This document shows, piece by piece, positions 36,616-38,078 of a stretch of 38,078 bases of DNA (the first letter of the stretch is position 1; every line of letters starts with the position of its first letter). The DNA is from an uncultured Chitinophagaceae bacterium (GTDB lineage: Bacteria; Bacteroidota; Bacteroidia; Chitinophagales; Chitinophagaceae), in assembly GCA_903881425.1 (NCBI GenBank), contig CAIRTF010000031.1, positions 1-38,078 on the forward strand, given 5' to 3'. The notes under the pieces were generated by a model, which saw only the letters and a program-made list of their open reading frames with translations, made no database searches and was not told where the DNA came from. A program made the translations under genes and the position numbers.

Positions 36616-37419
36616 ATGTCGCTCACATTTACACTTATTCAAACGCATTTACACTGGGAAGTAAAGCTTGCCAATTTGATGATGTTGGAAGAAAAAATTA
36701 ATTCCATTCAACAAAAAACAGAAGTGGTGATATTACCCGAAATGTTTAGCACAGGTTTTAGTATGGAGCCGGAGCGATTCGCTGAAACCATGGATGGGCC
36801 TGCAGTTGCGTGGATGAAGAAAATGGCCATACAACATAAAATTATTCTTACGGGAAGTTTGATGATTGAAGAAGATAAAAAATATTTTAATCGTTTAATA
36901 TGGATGTTACCCAATGGCAATTATGGATATTATGATAAGAGACATTGTTTTGCTTATGCCGGAGAAGATGAACATTATACACCTGGCAATAAAAGATTAA
37001 TTGCACAAGTAAAAGGATGGAAAATAAATGTACAGATATGTTATGATTTAAGATTTCCTGTTTGGGCAAGACAATCCTTCGACCTTGCTCAGGATGACAA
37101 AGAATATGATGTGTTGCTTTATGTTGCTAATTGGCCCGAACGCCGCAACTATGCATGGAAAACATTGTTAACTGCAAGAGCTATCGAAAATCAATCGTAT
37201 GTTATTGGTGTAAACAGGGTGGGCAATGATGGCAATAATATTTATCATAGTGGCGATAGTATGGTGGTTGATCCGTTGGGTGAAATATTATATCACAAAC
37301 AACATGATGAAGATATTTTTACCATTACTTTAGAAAAACAAAAATTAGAAGACATAAGAAATAAATTTCCTTTTTGGAAAGACGCTGATCAATTTAGAAT
37401 TATGAATGAAGATTTATGA
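36616..37419 (+). CDS. Nitrilase-family amidohydrolase, omega-amidase (YafV) type
   Basis: This 267-residue carbon-nitrogen hydrolase shows the Glu-Lys-Cys triad: E42 in VILPEMFSTGF, K108 in YYDKRHCFA and C142 in QICYDLRFP. The motifs LLYVANWPERRNYAWKTL and NRVGNDGNNIYHSGDS place it with YafV/NIT2-type omega-amidases, which hydrolyse 2-oxoglutaramate or 2-oxosuccinamate. Residues 153-162 (QSFDLAQDDK) interrupt the usual segment between the catalytic loop and EYDVLLYVANW. They are encoded by an interspersed repeat. Its stop overlaps the next start (ATGA). Confidence 0.9.
   Translation: MSLTFTLIQTHLHWEVKLANLMMLEEKINSIQQKTEVVILPEMFSTGFSMEPERFAETMDGPAVAWMKKMAIQHKIILTGSLMIEEDKKYFNRLIWMLPNGNYGYYDKRHCFAYAGEDEHYTPGNKRLIAQVKGWKINVQICYDLRFPVWARQSFDLAQDDKEYDVLLYVANWPERRNYAWKTLLTARAIENQSYVIGVNRVGNDGNNIYHSGDSMVVDPLGEILYHKQHDEDIFTITLEKQKLEDIRNKFPFWKDADQFRIMNEDL
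37071..37102 (+). repeat. Interspersed repeat inserted in frame in the nitrilase gene
   Basis: The sequence ACAATCCTTCGACCTTGCTC continues to a matching AGGAT, so ATCCT and AGGAT frame the unit. It encodes SFDLAQDDK. A sequence of this type (often read on the other strand as TCATCCTGAGC...GAAGGAT) is a known scattered repeat in many genomes. It keeps the frame and adds about ten residues. Confidence 0.6.
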
Positions 37420-37952
37420 GCGAAGAAGAAAAGTCCATGATCGATGGTCAACAGTCAACAGAAGAGACATCTGATTCTTCTGAAACACCTGCTATTACTG
37501 AAGTTACACCACTTAATACTTATAACTTACAACCAACAACTCCAATGGAAGTACATCATCATCCGCATGTAGAAAAAAAATCTTTCAAAGAATATTTGCT
37601 TGAAGGCTTAATGATTTTCTTAGCCGTAACCATGGGCTTTTTTGCTGAAAGCATTAGAGAAAATATTACCAAGCATGAAAAGGAACACCATTTAATGGAA
37701 ATGTTGGTAGAAGATTTAAAAGCAGATTTGCCAAAATTAGATTTAGCTATAAAAAACAATTCTATTAAGGTGCAGTATTTAGATAGTTTAAGGCATTGTA
37801 TTTATGCAGCAATAGACAAAAAATTGCCCGATACTATTTATAGAAATATGTATTACATACATAGAAGTTTTAGCCGTATTAGACATGAGTTTGCGCCAAC
37901 ATTAAGAACCCTAAACCAGTTTGAAAAAATTTGTAAAAGTATTTGTAGGTAG
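37416..37952 (+). CDS. Membrane-anchored protein of unknown function, apparently truncated
   Basis: The 178-residue frame has a polar N-terminus, a His-rich HHHPHVEKKSFKEYLLEG, one membrane helix (LMIFLAVTMGFFAESI, about residues 63-79) and a helical C-terminal part. HHPH...KEY...LMIFLAVTMGFFAES is a recurrent motif in Bacteroidetes proteins of unknown function that are usually longer. After TLRTLNQFEK the sequence ends abruptly in TAGTAG, at the point where the C-free DNA begins. The first 43 residues may not be real: ATG 37545 (MEVHHHPH) is an alternative start, and the DNA before it has GTCAACA repeats and the 3962-type repeat. Confidence 0.6.
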   Translation: MSEEEKSMIDGQQSTEETSDSSETPAITEVTPLNTYNLQPTTPMEVHHHPHVEKKSFKEYLLEGLMIFLAVTMGFFAESIRENITKHEKEHHLMEMLVEDLKADLPKLDLAIKNNSIKVQYLDSLRHCIYAAIDKKLPDTIYRNMYYIHRSFSRIRHEFAPTLRTLNQFEKICKSICR

Positions 37953-38078
37953 TAGAGGTATTATTGATGAAGTAGAAGTAGTTGAGATTGAGTATAATGG
38001 TATTTTGGATAGAAGTTTAGAGATTTTTAAGGAAATGGTTGAGGAGTGTGAAGATGGAGAAGATAGGGAAGAAATAGA
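37918..38078 (+). other. 161-bp cytosine-free segment with an open reading frame
   Basis: From 37918 to the right edge there is no C on the plus strand, and it is G/A-rich. One frame (TTG 37921 onward) is open for 52 codons to the edge: KKFVKVFVGSRGIIDEVEVV, then EIEYNGILDRSLEIFKEM and an acidic end. It is offset by +1 from the gene it interrupts. I do not recognise it. It could be a foreign or chimeric junction near a contig end, or a real gene start. Confidence 0.5.

Follow-up and report, generated by a model that had tools for sequence, protein, structure and literature searches.

A cytosine-free contig end in an uncultured Chitinophagaceae genome is probably a chimera of a host gene and the start of a cytosine-depleted T4-like phage gene

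The cytosine-free end of a bacterial contig described here is probably a chimera in which a host gene runs into the start of a T4-like phage gene, with the lack of C being a property of the phage gene family. The window, meaning the whole stretch of 38,078 nucleotides that we analyzed, spans all of contig C31, one of 217 contigs in the 2.75-Mb genome of an uncultured Chitinophagaceae bacterium, so the C-free stretch sits at a contig end (Table 1). Confirming the claim of a preliminary description of this DNA that no C occurs from 37918 onward, the last C of the window was found at 37917, and the final 161 bases contained A 61, T 51, G 49, and C 0. As a whole, the interpretation offered in that description was partly supported by our analysis.

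Table 1. Features at the end of the window, in positions of the window
Feature	Positions	Strand	Basis
C-free stretch to contig end	37918..38078		Base counts and comparison with other contigs
First 52 codons of an immuto26A_128-family gene, open at contig end	37921..38076	+	BLASTP and profile
5' part of host gene (hypothetical protein), cut short by foreign tail	37416..37929	+	Paralog C48:7065-7574
Probable junction, 8 bases TGAAAAAA fitting host gene and expected phage start ATGAAAAAA	37922..37929		Three-way comparison

The C-free end was exceptional both within the window and within the genome. Upstream of it, C makes up 18.4% of the window, and at this frequency the log10 probability of such a run starting at a given base is about -14; the preliminary description, which had called a chance run improbable at 12% C, was thus generous to chance. 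The second-longest C-free run of the window spans 60 bases, and the longest G-free run spans 89. For comparison with other contigs of the genome, 140 stretches were sampled, of which 27 read as N and were dropped; in the 113 kept (1,370,920 bases), the longest C-free and G-free runs were 85 and 73 bases, respectively. Among 202 contig ends, including both ends of the window, all 201 others had at least 10 C in their terminal 161 bases, which ruled out C-free contig ends as a systematic feature (0 of 201 similar). Furthermore, T accounts for 31.7% of the tail versus 33.9% of the window, and G accounts for 30.4% versus 15.4%. Bisulfite-like conversion of C to T in the contig was ruled out on this basis, since T was not raised in the tail and G was. 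The same figures, together with the ordinary C content of the host DNA upstream, speak against the earlier suggestion of a strand-biased C-to-T process acting on the contig. Chance local bias, another option raised previously, leaves the phage homology of the tail unexplained.

We found the tail to resemble the beginning of a phage gene. Its base use is coding-like, with G at 28 of 53 first, 10 of 53 second, and 10 of 52 third codon positions. When phages were searched with the tail DNA by blastn, a match was obtained to Flavobacterium phage immuto at E 0.2, beginning at the annotated start codon of immuto26A_128 (gene 128) and staying in frame. By BLASTP, the tail translation and the immuto26A_128 protein aligned from residue 1 with 44% identity over 50 amino acids (22 of 50 identical and 35 of 50 positive), a score reached by none of 5000 shuffles. 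Because immuto had been picked by DNA likeness (E 0.2), and hence was partly chosen for resembling C-free DNA, further support was sought in likeness beyond the DNA match, in a third family member, and in a profile. Beyond the DNA match, the likeness between the two proteins persisted, with 26 of 5000 shuffles reaching the score.

The third member, found with motifs obtained by aligning the tail translation with the immuto protein, was a gene at L185:5001-5336 on an uncultured 159-kb viral contig (IMGVR_UViG_3300007734_000759). Its protein is 37% identical to the immuto protein over residues 1 to 89 and shares MKKYLKVxxGSRG; the score of this pair was reached by 0 of 5000 shuffles and, after removal of the first 23 residues, by 2 of 5000. 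None of 5000 shuffles reached the score of the tail against the L185 protein. When searched against the phage collection, the L185 protein found immuto with no better than E 0.2. Its phage is a relative of immuto, with a capsid protein 63% identical. A profile built from the immuto and L185 proteins alone, searched against 28,436 ORFs of the fetched stretches of the genome, recovered the tail at E 2.6e-6 as the sole match below the inclusion threshold, with the next at E 4.7; single-sequence searches found the tail at E 3.8e-6 with the immuto protein but only at E 0.037 with the L185 protein. The tail, immuto 128, and the L185 gene have in common the motif MKK[YF][LV]KVxxGSRG and an acidic region following it. 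Members of the family are about 112 to 118 amino acids at full length, and the window holds the first 52 codons only. The 52-codon open frame in the shifted frame was confirmed, and these findings, along with base use in the tail, fit the earlier hint that it is real coding sequence.

Searches beyond these members returned little. Direct searches with the 52-amino-acid tail protein found nothing in phages, plasmids, viral contigs, or genome contigs; a two-row alignment gave 318 stretches among genome contigs, none of which was confirmed; and tail DNA (29 bases) had no match in viral contigs. An origin elsewhere in the same genome was ruled out, since only pieces of 16 to 26 bases matched (E 0.059 or worse), and as to a plasmid origin, the best 20 of 57 records listed had E 2 or worse. 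Besides the four immuto records, the immuto 128 DNA gave only short matches in phages (best 40 of 156 listed). The immuto 128 protein found only the four immuto records in phages, only the immuto contig in viral contigs, and none in plasmids. Of the degenerate start motifs searched in viral contigs, two gave only the two known members and two narrower ones gave nothing. Nothing reached the curated cut-off for the tail (Pfam, PHROGs, and NCBIfam), immuto 128 (PHROGs, Pfam, and PADLOC), or the L185 gene (PHROGs and PADLOC), the best PHROGs match across these searches being at E 0.025. By capsid identity to immuto, the next phages were Mel-JY01 (PP395634.1; 54%), recorded from the cyanobacterium Microcystis, and LR756508.1 (51%), with all others at most 39% among the best 30 of 2017 listed. 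Mel-JY01 had no homolog (best profile E 0.34) and no comparable C-poor gene, its longest C-free run being 79 bases and its lowest-C ORF of at least 240 nt having 7.3% C.

The immuto 128 protein is small and acidic, with 33 D and E among 118 residues. An AlphaFold2 model from the three sequences predicted strands and helices, with pLDDT ranging from 89.2 for the best to 49.1 for the worst of five models. The model had no match in the PDB at E ≤ 0.001 and no VIA-align match at Z ≥ 5. Matches to PDB sequences, mostly calmodulins and starting from E 0.17, were judged to reflect composition.

On the other side of the break, the gene cut short by the tail belongs to a repeated host family. Its residues 3 to 171 are 60% identical to C48:7065, an open frame of 298 amino acids on another contig of the same genome (C48), so the N-terminal part of the family is present in the window. 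Further paralogs are C48:6170 (50% over residues 4 to 155), one on C169 (48% over residues 13 to 171), and one on C138 (57% over residues 41 to 137), the last in a frame with one TAG. Paralog open frames of 298, 309, and 329 amino acids run on where the window switches, and the C48 and C169 copies extend more than 100 residues past the switch point. The window DNA follows the C48 paralog through CAGTTTGAAAAAA and then diverges, while C48 goes on into the C-terminal part; in the window, the C-terminal part after QFEK is absent, with the tail in its place from 37930. Searches of the host gene against Pfam and NCBIfam yielded nothing at the curated cut-off. The gene just before it, at 36616-37419, encodes a carbon-nitrogen hydrolase (Pfam PF00795, E 6.7e-35), and another genome of the genus holds a copy with 86% identity. 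We also observed that the end of C169 and the start of C138 share exactly 116 bases, which lie within a further copy of the family to which the broken host gene belongs, and that other contig pairs of the genome overlap by 141, 112, 52, and 28 bases.

At the junction, the host paralog reads CAGTTTGAAAAAAATG, the immuto gene start reads ATGAAAAAG, and the window reads CAGTTTGAAAAAATTTG. The eight bases TGAAAAAA are common to the expected phage start ATGAAAAAA and the host sequence TTTGAAAAAA, so that the break lies somewhere within them and only the 149 bases from 37930 onward are certainly foreign, a length that may be linked to a single sequencing read. The preliminary description had placed the start of the C-free segment at the gene break. 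The break is indeed adjacent, but the first 12 bases of the segment (37918-37929) match the host paralog; since the final bases of the host part lack C by chance, the C-free segment sets in a few bases upstream of the actual break. The window has TTG at 37921, a base that can derive from the host side of the junction, and the phage gene itself would presumably start with ATG.

Host homology thus stops and phage-family homology starts at the same place. Because the join falls on a short word common to both sides, next to a contig end, and in a repeated host gene family, we infer a chimera, in which the host gene would have been joined within the eight shared bases to the start of a gene from an immuto-related T4-like phage. 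This join probably arose in the library or during assembly rather than in the cell. An assembly chimera had been among the options proposed earlier, and it fits here jointly with the suggestion of real coding, the tail being a phage gene start. A true insertion, in which recombination placed the phage gene start inside the host gene in a living cell and the contig ended for reasons of coverage or repeats, is improbable in our judgment. It would account for a sequence that forms one contig with a clean junction, and the genome holds several copies of the host gene family, a repeat that can by itself end contigs, as the 116-base overlap between C169 and C138 illustrates. However, the junction is close to the contig end and coincides with a start codon and a short word common to both sequences, and a search of the genome for a capsid gene like that of immuto, run without a positive control, gave no match. 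Furthermore, the family was sought in three samples that overlap, drawn from the phylum (395 genomes), the order (396), and the class (395); in each, the sole match was the window itself, leaving 0 of 394, 0 of 395, and 0 of 394 others. As a probable chimera, the contig end serves as a warning that phage sequence can be carried into a bacterial genome by a short piece at the end of a contig.

Most likely, the lack of C was not caused by the join and is a property of the phage gene family. With 5 C in 354 bases, gene 128 has the lowest C content of 230 immuto ORFs (mechanically defined as plus-strand ATG ORFs of at least 150 nt); the next lowest has 5.6%, and the median of ORFs of at least 240 nt is 14.8%. 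Four of the five C are forced by amino acids. The NNY codons of gene 128 end in T 61 times and in C never, compared with 14184 T to 5028 C in ORFs of 300 nt or more, and in 200,000 synonymous draws from the codon use of the phage the minimum was 11 C. In the same region, we observed a second long C-free run of 117 bases (MW353175.1 69460-69576), which covers the end of immuto gene 130 and the sequence just beyond, near gene 128.

One explanation is that C poverty is a mere by-product of an acidic protein poor in A, P, T, H, and Q in an AT-rich phage, without selection on the message. These C-requiring amino acids make up 0% of the tail protein, 3.4% of immuto 128, which has the lowest share in the phage, and 6.3% of the L185 protein, against a phage median of 20.5%, and the protein alone lowers the expected C to 26 of 354 bases in immuto 128 and 8 of 156 in the tail. 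Yet the observed counts are 5 and 0, and all 61 NNY codons end in T. Given its protein, the tail would be C-free with P of about 2e-5 under immuto codon use and 3.5e-5 under host codon use. The L185 gene has 21 C where 37 are expected under the codon use of its own phage (P 2.5e-5, from a small sample of 22 ORFs), but under immuto codon use the depletion reaches only P 0.015. C is therefore below the expectation from protein composition in all three members, with near-complete loss in two and partial loss in one. Depletion also reaches sequence outside the protein. Sixteen small immuto genes at 67.6 to 73.9 kb (L180:17631-23870, which is MW353175.1 67631-73870) share the near-identical leader TAT[AC]TTTAG[GAT]TAT[CT]AATAATTAAAA, which we take to resemble a -7 promoter box of Bacteroidota joined to a conserved leader. 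Fifteen of these leaders keep the C of TATCAAT and carry one to four C, whereas gene 128 alone has T at this position and no C between the box and ATG. With synonymous sites, this leader, and the L185 gene under its own phage's codon use all depleted, we consider a by-product quite unlikely.

The leader-sharing genes also bear on a mutational cause, by which heavy transcription or another block-wide process would strip C from the coding strand, most of all in gene 128. With a minimum of 150 nt, ORFs were identified downstream of 15 of the 16 leaders, 14 of them besides gene 128, and these 14 sister ORFs are C-poor as a class, with a median of 10.5% C versus 14.8% in the rest and an observed-to-expected ratio of 0.86 versus 1.00 (each at P of about 1e-6 or below). 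Their NNY codons end in T 521 times and in C 103 times, compared with 15096 and 5544 in the rest. Consistent with a block-wide process, 6 of the 12 lowest-C ORFs besides gene 128 are sisters or rank neighbors (72224, 70302, 72966, 68018, 71038, and 69224), and the loss in gene 128 covers both the leader and synonymous sites. Given this mild C poverty of the sister genes, some of the effect belongs to the gene block rather than to gene 128 alone, so both selection and mutation have to be entertained as causes; the C poverty of the sisters may reflect mutation linked to transcription or a weaker form of the same selection. However, gene 128 lies far outside the class despite a nearly identical leader, with an observed-to-expected ratio of 0.19 when the next lowest is 0.51 and the median is 0.86. 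In addition, low C is accompanied by high G (25 to 33%), which C-to-T change alone does not give. On balance, a mutational cause appears somewhat unlikely.

We also weighed two more specific pressures, namely, that the message avoids C to escape Rho or that the template avoids G since the phage may swap some G for 7-deazaguanine. Rho prefers C-rich RNA. In support of the former, a study on Thermus Rho describes RNA release as deficient with a C-less template (PMC9908020). In support of the latter, immuto has annotated dpdA, queC, queD, queE, folE, and queF genes, and the phage of the L185 gene has a DpdA-like protein with 29% identity. In this uncultured immuto relative, the DpdA-like gene lies at G428:C1:101126-101812 (E 3.5e-8), and 7-deazaguanine modification of DNA may occur there. 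Neither pressure explains why gene 128 exceeds its sisters so much, and translated genes are not usual targets of Rho. Together, these two pressures make for a doubtful explanation with a low probability.

Possible, and preferred here tentatively, is selection of any kind for a C-free message, leader included, in some T4-like phages, with the window having captured, through an assembly accident, a second example that is entirely C-free. Much less certain is the form of selection that we favor, a message that has to function despite a C-dependent block. A message kept C-free would be made, or would survive, when a C-dependent agent blocks other messages, and candidates for such a block would include a C-specific ribonuclease, CTP shortage, Rho, and a template with modified G. 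Such a scenario would suit a small, acidic product that resembles an inhibitor and is directed against a host defense. Compared with its sister genes, gene 128 has lost far more C, and the loss extends to synonymous sites, amino acids, and the leader; should selection be responsible, this would indicate that the phage meets some C-dependent threat while infecting. In the open-access literature that we searched, we found no report of a cytosine-free or cytosine-depleted phage gene.

Among known genes, immuto26A_128 (QQO91807.1, Flavobacterium phage vB_FspM_immuto_2-6A, whose host is Flavobacterium sp. LMO8), annotated as a hypothetical protein, aligns with the tail gene from its first residue, and both are nearly or fully C-free; the immuto gene is complete, whereas 52 codons are present in the window. 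The model of its protein had one viral fold match below E 0.001, to A0A6J5KWQ1 of an uncultured Caudovirales phage (BFVD), with a similar predicted fold (E 2e-7, TM 0.64-0.66, 30% identity, 114 amino acids). The L185 gene is the lowest-C ORF of its 7.3-kb locus. Unlike immuto 128, it has 21 C among 336 bases and carries C in its leader, so strict absence of C is not a rule of the family.
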